This document shows positions 3,975-61,340 of a DNA stretch of 64,000 nt, piece after piece. The notes below the pieces were generated by a model. It searched no databases. It had not been told where the DNA came from and saw only the letters and a list, made by a program, of their open reading frames with translations. The DNA comes from an uncultured Clostridia bacterium (lineage in GTDB: Bacteria; Bacillota; Clostridia; Oscillospirales; Ruminococcaceae): positions 1 through 64,000 of the forward strand of contig CANQPX010000003.1 of NCBI GenBank assembly GCA_947625915.1. Direction: 5' to 3'. The position numbers were made by a program, and so were the translations under genes. Numbering within the stretch: position 1 is the first letter of the stretch; every line of letters begins with the position of its first letter.

Positions 3975-4313
3975 AGTCTGTCGAAAAAGTATTTGTAAAA
4001 AATATGTTTGTTTGAAAACGGACTGTTTATAAAAACAAATTGCTCTTTATTGCAAAACAGCTCACCGGGCTGTTTTGCAAGACTTAAATGGTATAATCCG
4101 TTAATACCAAGGGGGCGCCCTCTATCGCAGGGCAGCCCCCTCTTTACGCCTAACGGCGTAAATTCACCCCTTGCGGAGCTCCTAAAGGCATTAGGGGATT
4201 TCGCCATCTGCGGATGGCGACAAGGGGTTTCACCCCTTGACCCCACCAGCGCGGCTGCGCTGGACCAGCTTTTCGGGCGAAGTTTTGTTTTTCGTTTTTT
4301 AGTTTGTCCGCGC
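3975..4313 (+). repeat. Structured intergenic repeat element, copy 1
   Basis: Shares conserved blocks (AAAACAGCTCACCGGGCTGTTTTGCAA, CCAGCGCGGCTGCGCTGGACCAGCTTTTC, ATTCACCCC) with three other intergenic copies. Confidence 0.85.
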
Positions 4314-4316
4314 CTA

Positions 4317-5744
4317 TTATTCCTCAAAGAACGATTTGAATGCTTTGTATGTCATGTAAACGTCCGCTTTCGCAACTACCTCGTAAGGAGCGTGCATCGC
4401 CAGAACGGGAACGCCCACATCTATTACGTCCATGCCGAGATTTGCAAGATATGCCGCAACAGTTCCGCCGCCGCCAAGATCGACTTTTCCCAGTTCGCCT
4501 GTCTGCCAGATAATGCTGTTCTTTTCCATCAAAGCGCGTACGCGTCCTACAAATTCAGCCGAAGCATCGGAAGTTCCCGATTTGCCCCTTGCGCCCGTGA
4601 ACTTTGTTACCACAACGCCATGGTTCAGGTAAGCAGCGTTTTTCTTTTCCACAACATCGGGGAAAGTCGGATCGAACGCCGCGTTGACGTCTGCGGAAAG
4701 ACATTCCGTATTTGCGACCACATCTCTGCCCTTTGCACCGAAGCTGTCCGCAAGATCATAAAGAAAGTTTTTCAGATATGCGGAACAAAGTCCCGTATTT
4801 CCGTCACTGCCTGTTTCCTCCTTATCTGTAAGGCATACTACAGCAGTCTTTGAAACGCTGTTACAGCCGAGGATCGCTTCCAGCGCGGTATATGCACATA
4901 CTCTGTCGTCATGTCCGTAAGAACCGATAAGACTTCTGTCAAAACCGATATCCTTTGCCTTGAACGCGGGAACTGTTTCCAATTCCGCAGAAAGAAAATC
5001 CGATTCGATGATCCCGTATTTTTCGTGGAGCATAGACATAATGTTGAGCTTTACCTTTTCGCTGATATCGTCATCGCGGAAAGGTCTTGAACCAACGATA
5101 ATGTTAAGTTCCTCGCCCTTTATGCCCTCACTCAGAGTTCTCTTTACCTGCTCCTGTGCAAGGTGAGGAAGAAGATCGCTTATGAAAAATACCGGATCGT
5201 TTTCGTCCTCGCCTATCTTGACAGTGATTTTTGTACCGTCCTTTTTGATAATAACGCCGTGTATCGCAAGAGGTATTGTCGCCCACTGATATTTCTTTAT
5301 GCCGCCGTAATAGTGGGTCTTGAACAAAGCTACCTCATTATCTTCATAAAGAGGGTTCTGTTTCAGATCTATCCTCGGGGAATCGATATGCGCCGCCGCA
5401 AGGTGAACGCCTTTGCTGATATCCTCTTTGCCGATCACCGCAAGGATAACAGCTTTTCCGCGGTTATTGAAGTAAATTTTATCTCCCGCTTTAAGAGCCA
5501 TTCCCTTTGTGTATTCCTTGAAGCCTTCCTCCTTGGCAAGTTCTATGGCTGAAGCCGCAGCTTCTCTTTCAGTCTTTGCGCCGTTGAGGAAATCCTTGTA
5601 GCTTTCGCAGAAATCGTCACATTCCGAGGTCTGCTCCTCGGTCATGATAAGTCCCGCGTGTTTCTTTTCCATAAAGAGCTGTTCTTTCAGCAGCGCGGCA
5701 GGTGATTTTTCTTTTTCATTTGACATATAGAACGATCCTTTCAA
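4317..5744 (-). CDS. M18 family aminopeptidase
   Basis: 475 aa; 'LAAAHIDSPRIDLKQNPLYEDN', 'GSYGHDDRVCAYTALEAIL', 'DKEETGSDGNTG' motifs. Confidence 0.93.
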   Translation of the reverse strand: MKGSFYMSNEKEKSPAALLKEQLFMEKKHAGLIMTEEQTSECDDFCESYKDFLNGAKTEREAAASAIELAKEEGFKEYTKGMALKAGDKIYFNNRGKAVILAVIGKEDISKGVHLAAAHIDSPRIDLKQNPLYEDNEVALFKTHYYGGIKKYQWATIPLAIHGVIIKKDGTKITVKIGEDENDPVFFISDLLPHLAQEQVKRTLSEGIKGEELNIIVGSRPFRDDDISEKVKLNIMSMLHEKYGIIESDFLSAELETVPAFKAKDIGFDRSLIGSYGHDDRVCAYTALEAILGCNSVSKTAVVCLTDKEETGSDGNTGLCSAYLKNFLYDLADSFGAKGRDVVANTECLSADVNAAFDPTFPDVVEKKNAAYLNHGVVVTKFTGARGKSGTSDASAEFVGRVRALMEKNSIIWQTGELGKVDLGGGGTVAAYLANLGMDVIDVGVPVLAMHAPYEVVAKADVYMTYKAFKSFFEE

Positions 5745-15065: not shown

Positions 15066-15677
15066 ATGGATCAGGAGAAAACAGGAAAATTTATTGCCGC
15101 GTGCCGAAAGGACATCGGGCTTACCCAAGCCGCTCTTGCCGAAAAACTCGGCATAACCGACAGAGCCGTTTCAAAATGGGAAACGGGACGTTCCCTGCCC
15201 GACGCTTCGATCATGCTTGAACTTTGCGGAATACTCGGAATAAGTGTAAACGAACTGCTTACCGGAGAAAAAATTGCCATGGAAAACTACAAGGAGATAG
15301 CCGAAAAAAACCTTGCGGACATTTCGGAGCTTGAAAAGGACAAAAACACAAAACTTACAAAAGCGGAATTTTTCATCGGCTTGTCGGGAGTATTCATTTC
15401 GCTGATAATGGTCGTCTGCGGGGTATTTATAGCCGAAAGCGAGCCGTTTGTAACCATTTTTCTATGTATTTCCGGAGGTATTATTGCAATAGTATTTGAA
15501 TTTTACGCCGTACTGCTTGAACGGGATTCCGGATATTACGAATGTCAGAATTGCCGCAACAGATATGTTCCGTCAAAAAAAGCGATCATTTTTTCCGTTC
15601 ATTACGGCAGCGACCGTATTCTGAAATGTCCTGAATGTTCCAAAAAATGTTGGCACAAAAAGGTAATAACAAAGTAA
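15066..15677 (+). CDS. XRE-family transcriptional regulator with two TM segments and a C-terminal zinc-ribbon-like CxxC pair
   Basis: 'FIAACRKDIGLTQAALAEKLGITDRAVSKWETGRSLPDASIMLELC'; 'YECQNCRNRY...KCPECSKKC'. Internal ATG start after aaaggagg. Confidence 0.88.
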   Translation: MDQEKTGKFIAACRKDIGLTQAALAEKLGITDRAVSKWETGRSLPDASIMLELCGILGISVNELLTGEKIAMENYKEIAEKNLADISELEKDKNTKLTKAEFFIGLSGVFISLIMVVCGVFIAESEPFVTIFLCISGGIIAIVFEFYAVLLERDSGYYECQNCRNRYVPSKKAIIFSVHYGSDRILKCPECSKKCWHKKVITK

Positions 15678-15707
15678 AAAAACGCCCGTCCGGATATTTC
15701 CGGGCGG
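15675..15707 (+). repeat. 33-bp direct repeat, left copy (stop codon + terminator hairpin)
   Basis: TAAAAAAACGCCCGTCCGGATATTTCCGGGCGG, identical to 16381..16413; followed here by ATTTTTT. Confidence 0.97.
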
Positions 15708-15723
15708 ATTTTTTATAAATGTA

Positions 15724-15752
15724 TTGAATTTGTGTAACAAATGTGATACAAT
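15724..15752 (+). promoter_or_regulatory. Probable promoter of the RelBE-type module
   Basis: TTGAAT-N17-TACAAT, with a TTTGTGTAACAAA inverted repeat in the spacer. Confidence 0.5.
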
Positions 15753-15773
15753 ATCAATAAAGGAAGTGATATT

Positions 15774-16073
15774 ATGCCCAAAACCGAAACACTGCATATC
15801 AGAGTAAACGAAAATGTCAAACATAATGCCGAGGAAACTCTTGGATTATTAGGTCTTTCAATTTCCGAAGCGGTAAATATGTTCCTTTGTCAGGTAGATC
15901 TCACCGGCGGAATACCCTTTGATGTAAAAATACCCGCGCCCGAACGGGTCATAGTTCGTTCCAAAGAAGAACTGTCGCAAAAACTTTCCGAAGCTATGGA
16001 AGATGTCAAAAACGGAAGAACTATACCCGCCGAAGAAGCTTTCAAAAGGTTAGAAGAAAAGTATGGAATATAA
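15774..16073 (+). CDS. RelB/DinJ family type II antitoxin
   Basis: 'HIRVNENVKHNAEETLGLLGLSISEAVNMFLCQVDLTGGIPFDV'. Confidence 0.9.
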   Translation: MPKTETLHIRVNENVKHNAEETLGLLGLSISEAVNMFLCQVDLTGGIPFDVKIPAPERVIVRSKEELSQKLSEAMEDVKNGRTIPAEEAFKRLEEKYGI

Positions 16074-16383
16074 AGTTATTTTTTCGGAAGAATTTGAAAA
16101 TGACCTTGACCATGTTATTAACTATATTTCAAATAAACTATTCAGTCCAATTGCAGCAAAAAAATTTTATGCACAGATAAAAGAAAAAATAAATTATCTG
16201 AATGACTCCCCTTTTATCTACCCTGTTTATCATGATGAAAAACTGTCAAAAGAAGGGGTGAGATATATCGTTATATCAAATTATCTTATGTTTTACACTG
16301 TAAATGAACCAAATAGAGAGGTCATTATGCTTCGATTATCATATGGTAAAAGAAACATTACGGATATTATAGATAAAACATAA
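16063..16383 (+). CDS. RelE/ParE family type II toxin
   Basis: 'YKVIFSEEFENDLDHVINYISNKLFSPIAAKKFYAQIKEKINYL'; overlaps the antitoxin gene. Confidence 0.88.
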   Translation: MEYKVIFSEEFENDLDHVINYISNKLFSPIAAKKFYAQIKEKINYLNDSPFIYPVYHDEKLSKEGVRYIVISNYLMFYTVNEPNREVIMLRLSYGKRNITDIIDKT

Positions 16384-16413
16384 AAAAACGCCCGTCCGGA
16401 TATTTCCGGGCGG
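16381..16413 (+). repeat. 33-bp direct repeat, right copy; reads as the GSIII terminator on the minus strand
   Basis: Identical to 15675..15707. Together with following GCG it forms an 11-bp stem CGCCCGTCCGG/CCGGGCGGGCG preceded by A7 (U-tract on the minus strand). Confidence 0.95.
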
Positions 16414-16517
16414 GCGTCAGGGAGATTGGCAGACAAGTCCAGGGAAACCTGACTGCCATGTAAAGTGAGTAAATGCATGAACTGTTGTCATACATCTCGG
16501 ATAATAGAAGCGTCAGA

Positions 16518-18626
16518 TCAAACTCTGAAAAGAAGATCCGCATATGTCGGGAACGGCCACATCTTTTCGGGAGCGATAGTCTCCAGTTCATCAACTACGG
16601 CTCTAAGTGACTGCATTGCAGCAAAGATAACGTCTCTGTAGTATCTTGCAGCAGGTTCGCCTTCCTCGTAATTCTTTACTTCAAGCAGTTTGCTGTCAAG
16701 AGCATCGGTAGCTTCAAGAATACTGTTTGTCAGACCGGAAGCCTTGTCAATAAGGGCTTTTTCCGCATCGAAATTAACTCCAAGCGATTTCTTTGCCACC
16801 ATTGAATCAGCAAGGCTCTTGGTGAATTCCAGTCCTGCGGGAATGATCTGCTTTCTTGCCATGTCGACCATTGTAAGAGCTTCGATATTGATGATCTTGG
16901 AATAGTTTTCAAGGAGTATCTCCTGTCTGGACTCGATCTCGGTCCTTGTAAGAACTTTGAATTCCTCAAAGATAGCAACGTTCTTATCATCTGAATAGTG
17001 CGGAACGGCGTCAACGGTGGAAACGAGGTTCGGAAGTCCTCTCTTCTTGGCTTCTTCGATCCAAGAATCATCATAACCGTTGCCGTTGAAGATGATCTGC
17101 TTGTTTTCCTTGATAGTATCGATAAGCAGCTTGTTGAGATCGGAAGAAAAATCCTTGGAATTTTCAAGCTTGTCGGCAAATTCTTTCAGAACGTGTGCAA
17201 CGATCGTGTTAAGTATCATATTTGTGCAGGCGATGGAATCCGCAGAACCGAGTGCTCTGAACTCGAACTTGTTTCCGGTGAAAGCAAAAGGCGAAGTCCT
17301 GTTTCTGTCGGTGGTATCTTTCGGGAAGTTAGGAAGTGCGTCAACGCCGATAACAAATTCCTTATCTTTGTTTGTGGTTATCATCTTTCCTGTTTCCAGA
17401 GCGTCAAGTATAGTCTGGAGCTCATCGCCGAGGAATATGGAAACTATTGCGGGAGGCGCTTCGTTTGCGCCGAGTCTGTGGTCGTTGCCCGCAGAAGCTA
17501 CTGAAAGTCTCAGCAGATCGGAATAATTGTTTACAGCTTTGATGACTGCAACAAGGAATGTAAGGAATTGAATGTTGTCCTTGGGATTTTCGCCGGGATC
17601 GAGAAGGTTCTGACCGTCATTTGTGGAAATAGACCAGTTATTGTGCTTACCCGAACCGTTTACGCCCGCGAAAGGCTTTTCGTGGAGCAGACATACCAGA
17701 CCGTGTTTGAGAGCGGTCTTTTTCATTATCTCCATGGTAAGAGCGTTCTGATCGGCAGCAACGTTTGAAGTTGCAAAAATTGGAGCAAGTTCATGCTGCG
17801 CGGGAGCAACTTCGTTATGCTTTGTCTTGGCAAGTATGCCTAATTTCCAGAGTTCTTCGTCAAGGTCTTTCATGTAAGCGAAAACTCTCTCCTTGATGTT
17901 TCCGAAATAGTGATCTTCCAGTTCCTGACCCTTGGGGGCTTTCGCACCGAAAAGCGTTCTTCCTGTAAGGATAAGATCGCGTCTCTGATCGTAAAGCTTC
18001 TTGTCAACAAGGAAATATTCCTGCTCGGGACCGACTGTTGTTGTAACTCTTGTAGCGGTAGTATTTCCGAAAAGTCTGAGTACGCGGATAGCCTGCTCGG
18101 AAACAACGTCCATCGAACGGAGCAGCGGAGTTTTCTTATCGAGGATCTCGCCTGTGTAAGAGCAGAAAGCTGTAGGAATGTACAGCGAGCCGTCCTTAAC
18201 GAAAGCGGGAGAAGTAGGATCCCAAGCGGTGTAACCTCTTGCTTCAAATGTTGCTCTCAGACCGCCCGAGGGGAAAGAAGAAGCGTCCGGTTCGCCCTTG
18301 ATGAGTTCTTTTCCGGAAAATTCCATAATAACTTTTCCATCGCTTGTAGGCGAAATGAAAGAGTCATGTTTTTCGGCTGTGATGCCTGTCATGGGGTGGA
18401 ACCAGTGAGTATAGTGGGTAGCTCCCTTTTCAACAGCCCACTCCTTCATGGAATTTGCGATAACTTCCGCAACGTCAACGTCCAGTGCAACGCCCAGTTC
18501 CTGAGTTTTCAGCAAAGACTTATACACGTTTTTCGGAAGTCTTTCTTTCATGGTCTCCTTGTTAAAAACGTTGCAGCCGAAATATTCGGGAACGCTTTTA
18601 ACTCCCTGATTTACTGTTTCTGACAT
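16518..18626 (-). CDS. glnN: Type III glutamine synthetase (GSIII)
   Basis: 702 aa; 'HYTHWFHPMTGITAEKHDSFI', 'SFPSGGLRATFEARGYTAWDPTSPAF', 'HEKPFAGVNGSGKHNNWSIS'. Confidence 0.96.
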   Translation of the reverse strand: MSETVNQGVKSVPEYFGCNVFNKETMKERLPKNVYKSLLKTQELGVALDVDVAEVIANSMKEWAVEKGATHYTHWFHPMTGITAEKHDSFISPTSDGKVIMEFSGKELIKGEPDASSFPSGGLRATFEARGYTAWDPTSPAFVKDGSLYIPTAFCSYTGEILDKKTPLLRSMDVVSEQAIRVLRLFGNTTATRVTTTVGPEQEYFLVDKKLYDQRRDLILTGRTLFGAKAPKGQELEDHYFGNIKERVFAYMKDLDEELWKLGILAKTKHNEVAPAQHELAPIFATSNVAADQNALTMEIMKKTALKHGLVCLLHEKPFAGVNGSGKHNNWSISTNDGQNLLDPGENPKDNIQFLTFLVAVIKAVNNYSDLLRLSVASAGNDHRLGANEAPPAIVSIFLGDELQTILDALETGKMITTNKDKEFVIGVDALPNFPKDTTDRNRTSPFAFTGNKFEFRALGSADSIACTNMILNTIVAHVLKEFADKLENSKDFSSDLNKLLIDTIKENKQIIFNGNGYDDSWIEEAKKRGLPNLVSTVDAVPHYSDDKNVAIFEEFKVLTRTEIESRQEILLENYSKIINIEALTMVDMARKQIIPAGLEFTKSLADSMVAKKSLGVNFDAEKALIDKASGLTNSILEATDALDSKLLEVKNYEEGEPAARYYRDVIFAAMQSLRAVVDELETIAPEKMWPFPTYADLLFRV

Positions 18627-18966: not shown

Positions 18967-18995
18967 TTGACAAAATATTTTAAAAATTATATAAT
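18967..18995 (+). promoter_or_regulatory. Consensus sigma-A promoter for the LRR lipoprotein gene
   Basis: TTGACA-N17-TATAAT. Confidence 0.8.
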
Positions 18996-19032
18996 ATTTA
19001 AAAGAATAATACTAAAAAGGAGAAATTATGCA

Positions 19033-20244
19033 ATGAAAAAGTTTATTATAGCAGCAATTTTGTCGCTTTCAATGCTTACTGCTTGCGCGGATACGGAAAC
19101 AGCCGAAGTTCCCGAAACTTCTGCCGAAGTCACCACCGCAAGCCAATCTGAAACAGAAAAAACCGCCGAGGAAACAGCTGCAGCAGAGGAAACAATTACC
19201 ACCGAGGAAACCACAACTTCCAAAGAAACAACCACTGCCGAAAATGTCGATCATATTATTATACAAGGTGTGGAATATTCCACAAGTCTTACCGAGCTTG
19301 ATCTATTTAAAAAAAATTTGACTAATGAAGATATTAAAGACCTTGATAAAATGACTAATTTAACACATTTAGACTTGAGTTCTAACCAAATCAGCGATAT
19401 AAGTCCGTTAAAAGATCTGACTAATTTAACATATCTGAGATTGAATAACGATAAGATCAGTGACATAGAGCCGTTAAAGGATCTGATCAATTTAACGTAT
19501 CTGGACTTGTGTACCAATCAGATCAGTGATTTAAGCCCGTTAGCCGAGCTGACTAATTTAAAAGAATTGTTATTGGAGTACAACCGGATCAGCAATATAG
19601 ATCCGTTAAAAAATTTGACTAATTTAGAAGAATTATGGTTGTTTAAAAATCAGATCAGCGATATAAGCCCGTTATCCGGTCTGACTAATTTAACAGAATT
19701 GCATTTTGGTCAAAATCAGATCAGTGATATCAGTCCGTTAGCTGATCTGCCTAATTTAACAAGATTGTTATTGGAGTACAACCAGATCAGCGACATAAGT
19801 CCGTTAGCTGATCTGCCTAATTTAACGGATCTGAGATTAGATAAAAATCATATCAGCGATATAAGTCCGTTAGCTGATCTGAATAGTTTAACAGATCTGA
19901 AAATGAAAAACAATCAGATCAGTGATATAAGTCCGTTAGCTGATTTGGCTAATTTAACATATTTGAGATTGGATAACAATCAGATCAGTGATATAGACCC
20001 ATTAGCTGATTTGACTAATTTAACATATTTGAACTTGGGCGACAATAAGATCAGCGATATAAGTTCGTTAAAGGATATGACTGATCTAACAGATTTGGAC
20101 TTGGGTGGAAATCAGATCAGCGATATAAGCCCGTTAAAGGATCTGACTAATTTAACATATCTGGTTTTGAAAGAAAATCAGATAAGCAATAATGATATTG
20201 CAGAATTAATTAAGTCATTTCCAGATGGTACAATAATTTTTTAA
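19033..20244 (+). CDS. Leucine-rich-repeat (internalin-like) lipoprotein
   Basis: Lipobox 'LSMLTACA', Thr/Glu-rich linker, then tandem 22-aa LRRs 'LTNLTYLDLxxNQISDISPLKD'. Confidence 0.92.
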   Translation: MKKFIIAAILSLSMLTACADTETAEVPETSAEVTTASQSETEKTAEETAAAEETITTEETTTSKETTTAENVDHIIIQGVEYSTSLTELDLFKKNLTNEDIKDLDKMTNLTHLDLSSNQISDISPLKDLTNLTYLRLNNDKISDIEPLKDLINLTYLDLCTNQISDLSPLAELTNLKELLLEYNRISNIDPLKNLTNLEELWLFKNQISDISPLSGLTNLTELHFGQNQISDISPLADLPNLTRLLLEYNQISDISPLADLPNLTDLRLDKNHISDISPLADLNSLTDLKMKNNQISDISPLADLANLTYLRLDNNQISDIDPLADLTNLTYLNLGDNKISDISSLKDMTDLTDLDLGGNQISDISPLKDLTNLTYLVLKENQISNNDIAELIKSFPDGTIIF

Positions 20245-39928: not shown

Positions 39929-39950
39929 GAGACAGGCGAAAGCCTGTCTC
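39929..39950. terminator. Hairpin after AI-2E gene, left flank of repeat copy 2
   Basis: GAGACAGGC-GAAA-GCCTGTCTC. Confidence 0.7.
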
Positions 39951-39952
39951 CT

Positions 39953-40300
39953 CAGTTTGTCGATAAAGCATAATAATAGTTCATTGTCAAACAACGGATA
40001 ATTTTTTAGAAAAACAAACTGCTCTATATTGCCAAACAGCTCACCGGGCTGTTTGGCAAGGCTTATATGGTATTAATCGTTAGTGCCAAGGGGAACGCTC
40101 TCTCTTGCAGAGCGTTCCCCTCTTGCCGCTTGCAGCGGCAATTCACCCCTTTGCAGAGGCGCCTTCGTAAGGGGAATTTCGCCATCTGCGGATGGCGACC
40201 AAAGGCTCTGCCTTTGGAAACCGCCAGCGCGGCTGCGCTGGACCAGCTTTTCAATTTTGCGCTGCGCGCAAAATTGTTAAAAACTTTTTTGACAAACTTA
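39953..40300 (+). repeat. Structured intergenic repeat element, copy 2
   Basis: Shares conserved blocks and hairpin order with copies 1, 3 and 4; ends are inverted (CAGTTTGTCGATAAAG vs CTTTTTTGACAAACTT). Confidence 0.85.
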
Positions 40301-40302
40301 AA

Positions 40303-40331
40303 GGAGACAAGCTTTCGCCTGTCTCCTTTTT
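40303..40331. terminator. Hairpin + T-run, right flank of repeat copy 2
   Basis: GGAGACAAGC-TTTC-GCCTGTCTCC-TTTTT; reverse complement of the left-flank hairpin apart from 1-2 positions. Confidence 0.7.
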
Positions 40332-49796: not shown

Positions 49797-50108
49797 CAGT
49801 TTGTCGATACGAATTATTTTTTGGAAAAATCAATTGCTCTTTATTGCAAAACAGCTCACCGGGCTGTTTTGCAAGGCTTAAATGGCAACAACCGTTAATG
49901 CCAAGGGGGAAGCCCTCTATCGCAGGGCTTCCCCCTCTTTACGCCTGCGGCGTAAATTCACCCCCTGCGGAGCTCCTAAAGGCATTAAGGAATTTCGCGC
50001 TCTGCGGAGCGCGACAATGGGCTCCGCCCCTTGACCCCGCCAGCGCGGCTGCGCTGGACCAGCTTTTCGGGCAAGGTTTTGTTTTTCGCTATTTAGTTTG
50101 TTCGCGCC
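49797..50108 (+). repeat. Structured intergenic repeat element, copy 3
   Basis: Same ordered hairpins and conserved blocks as copies 1, 2 and 4. Confidence 0.88.
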
Positions 50109-50132
50109 TACTTTTAGTTTTTCGGCAGTCAA

Positions 50133-53886: not shown

Positions 53887-54221
53887 CAGCTTGTCGATAA
53901 AGCATAATATAGTTTGTCGTCAAGCAACAGATTTTTTGGAAAACAAATTGCTCTGTATTGCAAAACAGCTCACCGGGCTGTTTTGCAAGGCATAAATCAT
54001 AATAACCGTTAATACCAAGGGGAACGCTCTCTCTTGCAGAGCGTTCCCCTCTTGCAACCTTCGGTTGCAATTCACCCCTTTGCAGAGGCGCCTTCGTAAT
54101 GGGGATTTCGCCATCTGCGGATGGCGACAAGGGGTTTCACCCCTTGACCCCACCAGCGCGGCTGCGCTGGACCAGCTTTTCGGGCAAAGTTTTGTTTTTC
54201 GTTTTCTAATTTGTCCGCGCC
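53887..54221 (+). repeat. Structured intergenic repeat element, copy 4
   Basis: Same ordered hairpins and conserved blocks as copies 1-3. Confidence 0.88.
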
Positions 54222-54331
54222 GATTTTTTAGTTTTTTGATAATCTGAATTTTTTAGAATTTACCTACCCTTTCCCGCATATAATTAATAATAATAATAAT
54301 AATATCGAATTTTATTGCGGGAGAAAATAAA

Positions 54332-60119: not shown

Positions 60120-61340
60120 AGGGGGGCTTTAGTTTGCTTTTCTTGATTTTTTATTTTGTTTATAACCCTCTTTTTGAGTTTTTGGGGCAAATTTAAAAGT
60201 GACGAAGTTTGCTTTTCTATTAAAAGCATAGTAAAAATTTTTTCGTTTTTTTCCTGTGATGGGGCAGACAACCATAAGGGACGGGGAAACCCGAGCGGGG
60301 TGGGTGGGAGACGGTCGGTGGGGTTCTTTAGTTCGCTTTTCTTAATTTTTTATTTTGCTTATAACCTTCTTTTTGAGTTTTCGGGGGACAGAACCTTTAG
60401 GGAAGGGAGAACCCGAACGCGGGGCGCTTTTAATAAAAGCTTAGTAAAAATCTTTTCGTTTTTTCTTGCGAGGGGCAGACAACCATAAGGGACAGGGAAA
60501 CCCGAGCGCGGGGGCTTTTAAGAACGCTGTTCTTATCCTTTATTTTGTTTAAATCTCTTAGTTTTATGTTTCGGGGGACAGAACCTTTAGGGAAGGGCGA
60601 ACCCGAGAAATTAACGGGGACGCTCGCACGGGTTCTCCCTTCCCCTGCGGTTCTGTCCCCCGAGCCCCCTACTCCCCAACCCTATCCCTCTCCACGCTCG
60701 CTATGCTAAAGCTAATATTATATAAAAGGCTTTTTAGTACTCTTGAACGGAGATTGCGTTGGCTACGGGTTCCTTAGTTTAGCTTACCTTAGTACGAGCG
60801 TTCTAATATTAGATGAAAATTAAAGAAGAATAGTATTTCTAAACAATATAATTTCTTTTTTGGAGTCCTTTCCCGTGTAGAACTCTATAATTGTTGAATA
60901 TCAAACTAACAGTAGAACTCTCTTACCAAGATAAACAAAACTAAGGGTCACTGTTGACTCCACAAATTTTGTTATAGAAATCTAAAAAATCTTTTCTATA
61001 ATCTCTACTTTAGGATAGCGAGCGTGGAAGGGGAAAGGTTGAAGGAAAGTGGGGAGCGCGAGGGGAGAAAAACTAAGGGAAGGGGAAAACCGTGCGAGCG
61101 CCCATAGGGGCGGTCGGGTTTCCCCTTCCCTTATGGTTGTCTGCCCCTCGCATGAATTGGCAAAAAGGGTTATATTCAAAATAAAATATAAGAACAGCGT
61201 TCTTAAATGCCCCGTTTGGGTTCTTCCTTCCCTGAAGTGTCATCCCCCCCCGAACAATTTGGCAAAAAGGGTTATATTCAAAATAAAAAATCAAGAAAAG
61301 CAAAATAAAGAACCCCACCGACAACTCCACTCTCAACTCC
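60120..61340. repeat. Large imperfect palindrome with nested direct and inverted repeats, non-coding
   Basis: Arms around 60313-60711 and 61008-61330 are reverse complements in the same unit order; innermost arms CCACGCTCGCTATGCTAAAG / CTTTAGGATAGCGAGCGTGG (19/20). No credible ORF. Confidence 0.85.

Follow-up and report, generated by a model that had tools for sequence, protein, structure and literature searches.

Gene organization at the glnN locus

In the window, by which we mean the whole 64,000-nucleotide stretch analyzed here, a predicted relBE toxin–antitoxin (TA) operon lies between a gene for an XRE-type regulator and the gene glnN for type III glutamine synthetase (GSIII), and is enclosed by two copies of a 33-bp direct repeat, TAAAAAAACGCCCGTCCGGATATTTCCGGGCGG (Table 1). 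An earlier sequence-only reading of the window had described this repeat as perfect, and we indeed found zero mismatches between the copies; in 100 dinucleotide shuffles, no match was obtained even with up to three mismatches allowed. The gene coordinates likewise agree with its statement that the first TAA serves in either copy as the stop codon of the preceding gene, namely XRE on the left and relE on the right. The 33-bp repeat is the terminator hairpin of glnN together with this preceding stop codon.

Table 1. Features of the glnN locus in the window
Feature	Position	Strand	Description
XRE (HTH_3) regulator gene	15066..15677	+	203 aa; stops at the first TAA of the left repeat
Left repeat copy	15675..15707	+	XRE stop codon and terminator hairpin with a 9-pair stem
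U tract behind the left hairpin	15708-15717	+	ATTTTTTATA
relBE promoter, sigma-70-like (predicted)	15724..15752	+	TTGAAT-17-TACAAT, consensus match
Antitoxin gene, RelB/DinJ family	15774..16073	+	99 aa
Toxin gene, RelE/ParE superfamily	16063..16383	+	106 aa; 11-bp overlap with relB
Conserved structured RNA element, glnN 3'UTR	16378..16518	-	Ends in the right hairpin
Right repeat copy	16381..16413	+	relE stop codon and the hairpin of the native glnN terminator, which functions on the - strand
glnN, type III glutamine synthetase	16518..18626	-	702 aa; convergent with relBE

Both genes of the pair scored above the cut-offs of their family models, the antitoxin with the RelB/DinJ family (PF04221, E 2.4e-12, 47 bits against a cut-off of 22.4; TIGR02384, 59 bits against 45.65) and the toxin with the RelE/ParE superfamily (PF05016 ParE_toxin, E 6.8e-12, 46.2 against 23; TIGR02385 RelE_StbE, 31.6 bits against 27.9), which by these models places the pair in the type II RelBE/ParDE group. 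The toxin family names conflict, being ParE_toxin in Pfam and RelE_StbE in NCBIfam. Two PDB sequences matched the toxin, both of them ParE chains (E 4e-4 and 5.6e-4), and the predicted fold was of low confidence (pLDDT 59.8), too uncertain for a structure search. As in relBE/parDE operons of type II, the antitoxin gene comes first, an overlapping toxin gene follows and a promoter-like site precedes both; the difference is that the activity of the present pair is predicted from sequence, and the toxin may be either an mRNase (RelE) or one that acts on gyrase (ParE). From these features, relB and relE would be expected to work as a TA pair.

The PADLOC models gave no match for relB or relE, and their match to the HTH part of XRE was the only one, by which a defence system was ruled out; the C-terminal part of the XRE protein appears, by eye, to be membrane/zinc-ribbon-like, and its orthologues in two related genomes (G018 and G005) are 96% identical. 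Viral contigs contained no relative of relE and no match to the hairpin pattern, and relE had one distant match in plasmids and four in phages, at identities of 27 to 36%; on these grounds we rejected a viral or plasmid source of the cassette.

The hairpins and their relation to the glnN terminator

The 28-nt core of the repeat was found at exactly two sites in the genome to which the window belongs (G000; 2.10 Mb in 73 contigs, 89.5% complete) with up to three mismatches allowed, and the reversed control yielded none. At the same threshold, the hairpin was confined to the glnN locus and was present in 6/21 genomes of the genus. A dispersed terminator family was accordingly ruled out, with two copies in the genome itself and none beyond the glnN locus in the genus. 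A scan of the window against Rfam gave nothing at the gathering score.

The right hairpin occupies the place of the glnN terminator in the glnN alignment, and its stem covaries, with 9/13 pairs changed on both sides; the right copy is therefore the native one and the left copy its duplicate. On the – strand, which is the glnN side, the right hairpin consists of a stem with one C–A mismatch in G000 followed by T7. On the + strand, which is the relBE side, 13 pairs are followed by CAGGGAG and there is no U tract. The sequence-only reading had called this copy a full bidirectional terminator; the glnN half of that description is upheld, whereas the relBE half is not. On the + strand, the left copy is followed by ATTTTTTATA and could plausibly terminate XRE.

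Homologous relBE modules elsewhere in the genus (L039 in G012 and L049 in G010) are similar to the cassette only over a stretch that starts roughly at the promoter and stops close to the relE end; they retain the AAATGTGATACAAT stretch of the promoter and have no hairpin. The hairpin therefore belongs to the glnN locus, and a hairpin carried by the TA cassette was ruled out. We also followed the suggestion that other TA cassettes might be flanked by duplicated terminators, with a negative outcome: of 17 other relE loci in the set, two had too little flanking sequence, and none of the 15 testable loci showed an exact flanking direct repeat longer than the shuffle maximum (24 further relE matches lie outside this set). 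The same test on the four genomes with an intact cassette gave repeats of 33, 14, 15 and 17 nt, of which that of 14 nt merely equals the shuffle maximum.

The site in related genomes and the age of the insertion

We searched for XRE and relE in 61 genomes, including G000, and for glnN in the 21 genomes of the genus, where it was present in 20, with a readable 3' side in 17 (in G002, G010 and G014 the match ends short). The arrangement hairpin–relBE–hairpin is intact in 4/17 genomes (G000, G005, G013 and G016). In one further genome (G019), the cassette lies between the hairpins with an internal deletion of relE, and in another (G018), XRE is followed by a single hairpin and glnN without relBE, as predicted by the sequence-only reading for an empty site. 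In the other 11/17 genomes, neither relBE nor XRE was found within the 1.1 to 4.1 kb fetched past glnN. The junctions are common to all five cassettes: on the left, the hairpin is followed by a T tract and TATAAAyGTATTGAAT, and on the right, the relE stop codon stands immediately ahead of the hairpin. Together with the single-hairpin site, these carriers bear out the claim that the TA pair is an insert between XRE and glnN within a duplicated terminator. The sample comprises one draft genome per species, several of them MAGs, so that polymorphism within species is unseen.

The sequence to the left of the cassette is more variable. In G019, glyA–XRE and XRE–hairpin–relB–hairpin–glnN come from separate contigs sharing an identical 77-base overlap within XRE, which indicates the same gene order as in the window, with an intact XRE gene ahead of the bracketed cassette. 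In the three other carriers, the left hairpin no longer stands directly behind an intact XRE gene: only the apparent last XRE codons precede it in G013, a short likely XRE remnant in G016 and about 1 kb of other sequence in G005. The latter segment (L081, about 520–1560), between XRE and the left hairpin, contains HTH-like and zinc-ribbon-like reading frames as judged by eye, which suggests that the site takes up further inserts. A small zinc-ribbon-like frame (by eye), absent from the window, lies between XRE and glyA in G018 (L004, about 2325–2516). In G019 (L080, about 740–790), relE is missing from its start to its last codons, relB is open and a short microhomology can be seen by eye at the junction. 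The toxin would thus have been lost first, and its loss with retention of the antitoxin fits a toxicity that is neutralised by the antitoxin.

In the glnN, glyA and rarA trees, G018 was paired in all three cases with the carrier G016 (support 0.999 to 1.0), and a tree of the three concatenated genes grouped both with G000; the placement of G005 was unstable, the rarA tree moving it nearer to the outgroups. Since G018 is nested among carriers, the simplest reading of its empty site is a precise deletion, and on grounds of parsimony the site has probably been re-emptied. Between species, the cassette DNA differs by 7.7 to 17.1% and the three host genes of the same species by 5.6 to 13.9% (for G000 and G016, 12.8% and 10.6%, respectively), and an unrooted tree of the cassette does not conflict with that of the host. 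The cassette has therefore diverged about as much as the host genes, and a recent insertion is not supported.

The sequence-only reading had dated the insertion as recent from the identity of the copies. An insertion with target duplication in this lineage alone, too young for the copies to differ, would account for that identity and for a relative with a single-hairpin empty site; however, four other species hold the cassette at identical junctions with diverged hairpins, its divergence is comparable to that of the host genes, and a new event would need to have struck identical base positions. These observations make a recent insertion quite improbable. The order hairpin–relBE–hairpin–glnN with diverged hairpins in relatives, which in G019 stands behind an intact XRE gene, had been named beforehand as evidence against it. 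TA genes are often transferred, and one could also suppose that the empty site of G018 is ancestral and that relBE was passed between the other species by homologous recombination in the flanking genes, which are similar enough to exchange; in places, moreover, the single-gene trees disagree. However, the compatibility of the cassette tree with the host tree and the pairing of G018 with a carrier in three of three gene trees argue against this, and we consider such a spread unlikely. The simplest history is a single insertion in the common ancestor followed by the precise loss in G018.

Identity of the two copies and a probable history of the site

Over 28 nt, the left and right copies differ at no position in G000, at two in G016 and in G019, at four in G005 and at five in G013. 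The two copies in G000 share an A>G change at column 5 that occurs in no other copy, an A>G change at column 25 that is otherwise restricted to the left G013 copy, and a longer A run. In simulations without conversion, in which structural constraint was ignored, the frequency of such a pattern among the runs did not exceed 3e-5 for G000 and 1.7e-4 for any genome. Because both copies share two private or nearly private substitutions, later homogenisation best explains their identity, and its likely cause is conversion of one copy by the other or a recombination event with the same effect; the case for conversion is built on two substitutions and the length of the A run in a short structured sequence. 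As for direction, the change at column 5 is compensated in the stem of the right copy and points to conversion from right to left, whereas that at column 25 creates the C–A mismatch in the glnN-strand hairpin and points from left to right. In the other four cassette genomes, the copies are no more alike within a genome than between genomes, so that concerted evolution in all carriers is unsupported and homogenised copies are seen only in G000.

Identity might otherwise have been kept by selection on both hairpins, for example as binding sites of a protein or RNA, without any recombination, since both copies are predicted hairpins with constrained stems. However, the four related carriers have copies that differ at 2 to 5 of the 28 positions, and the predicted fold leaves column 5 of the left copy unpaired, so that its change has no evident structural explanation; selection of this kind appears very unlikely. 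We give even less credence to the view that the hairpins are recombination sites of a TA cassette that is still moving, in the manner of integrons or through a recombinase acting in trans. TA operons do exist as integron cassettes, according to the available part of one report (PMC2654758), and the loss in G018 was precise, but the hairpin is confined to the glnN locus and relBE homologues elsewhere are without it; in integrons the hairpin would be repeated along a cassette array, whereas here it occurs at one locus in the six genomes.

We therefore return to a single ancestral insertion. A self-contained RelB/RelE-ParE operon, extending from promoter to stop codon, would have been inserted at the glnN terminator on a single occasion, in an ancestor shared by a clade of some six species, with duplication of the terminator to give one copy on each side; the right hairpin would be the native terminator and the left one the extra copy, at which XRE now terminates. 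Thereafter, recombination or template switching may have acted on these two short direct repeats as on any others. In the G018 lineage, a precise deletion of the cassette would have left one hairpin; in G019, the toxin gene alone was deleted; and in the lineage of the window, conversion would have rendered both copies identical. Placed between two terminators, relBE might disturb either neighbour little, the left hairpin setting it apart from XRE, and the short direct repeats would allow deletion of the cassette in one step as well as a toxin-first decay as in G019. We hold this whole history, from the insertion with terminator duplication to the loss in G018, the relE loss in G019 and the conversion in G000, to be probable.

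Insertion of restriction-modification genes with long target duplication was reportedly described by Nobusato et al. in 2000. In the available parts of two later papers, such addiction-type genes are said to insert with target duplications of the order of 100 bp (PMC3874152), and insertion of this kind is also cited (PMC2654758). The present locus resembles these cases in having an addiction-type gene pair in the chromosome with a target copy on both sides, and in the existence of a relative with a single-copy empty site, although that site is nested among carriers and was probably re-emptied. It differs in that the duplication is 28–33 bp long, below the order of 100 bp given in the available text, and consists of a terminator, and in that a RelBE-type TA pair is involved in an old insertion. 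The cassette would thus work like a long-target-duplication insertion, a comparison that we draw by analogy and not as proven membership. In Microcystis aeruginosa PCC 7806, a ParE/ParD-like TA pair is fenced by identical 152-bp direct repeats with an inverted repeat (PMC7935541). Both systems have a RelE/ParE-type pair between identical direct repeats containing an inverted repeat, but the Microcystis repeats, in the available part of that report, are 152 bp long and are not presented as terminators, and no empty site or decay series is described. Our literature search found no report of duplicated terminators enclosing a TA pair. The locus is a well documented case of a phenomenon already known, and its value lies in one site with a series of states, namely an intact cassette, a lost toxin, a precisely lost cassette and repeats made identical. 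It also serves as a warning that the identity of flanking repeats is no proof of recent insertion.

A conserved RNA element in the glnN 3'UTR

A conserved structured element spans the region from the glnN stop codon to the terminator and finishes with the right hairpin. A covariance model built from nine genus sequences was run on 61 genomes and matched 11, namely the nine sources (which match by construction), a genome of another genus (G022) in which the element stands behind a 78% identical glnN, and, weakly, G034, where no glnN is nearby; a second weak match in G000 was the left hairpin. With G022 added, the model matched 12/297 genomes of the family. Eleven of these 12 matches, distributed over five genera, are directly behind glnN (four from genomes in the model and seven outside it); the twelfth (G025), the weakest and with no glnN nearby, was dropped. 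The element was absent from eight of the genus genomes in which the glnN 3' side could be read, and Rfam matched the glnN 3'UTR only far below its gathering scores.

In an alignment of 17 sequences, each of the 8 pairs of the second helix shows two-sided changes in at least one sequence, and the covariation score was reached by 0/500 shuffles. ACUCA ahead of the helix is invariant, CCC in its loop is nearly so, and CUCCCU behind it was seen by eye in 17/17 rows. One of the UCCC motifs of the element is in the hairpin loop and one is ahead of the terminator; in Firmicutes, small RNAs are known that pair with ribosome-binding sites through C-rich UCCC motifs. These properties make the element a candidate 3'UTR small RNA. 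In enterobacteria, the small RNA GlnZ is released from the 3'UTR of glnA, according to the available part of PMC9731577. The likeness to GlnZ, as far as that source describes it, is a conserved 3'UTR of a glutamine synthetase gene; the difference is that GSIII and another phylum are concerned here and that the evidence for the element consists of conservation and covariation. Our literature search found no description of a 3'UTR RNA of a GSIII gene. We put forward only tentatively, as somewhat less than an even chance, that the element is a conserved GSIII small RNA and the clostridial counterpart of GlnZ, that its two UCCC motifs pair with ribosome-binding sites, and that its terminator was duplicated and captured a TA pair. 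If expressed, it would add a further phylum to those in which glutamine synthetase mRNAs give rise to regulatory RNAs, and the element may be more deserving of attention than the repeat.

Elsewhere in the window, positions 18967–20244 contain a predicted gene for a protein of 425 aa, with some ten leucine-rich-repeat units of 66 bp. Dispersed repeats of 156–250 nt, 67 to 89% alike, are found at 4015–4321, 39994–40252, 49809–50115 and 53923–54228, one of which sits between inverted hairpin copies (39929–39952 and 40302–40325), and direct and inverted repeats of 35–79 nt are densely clustered at 60121–61322.
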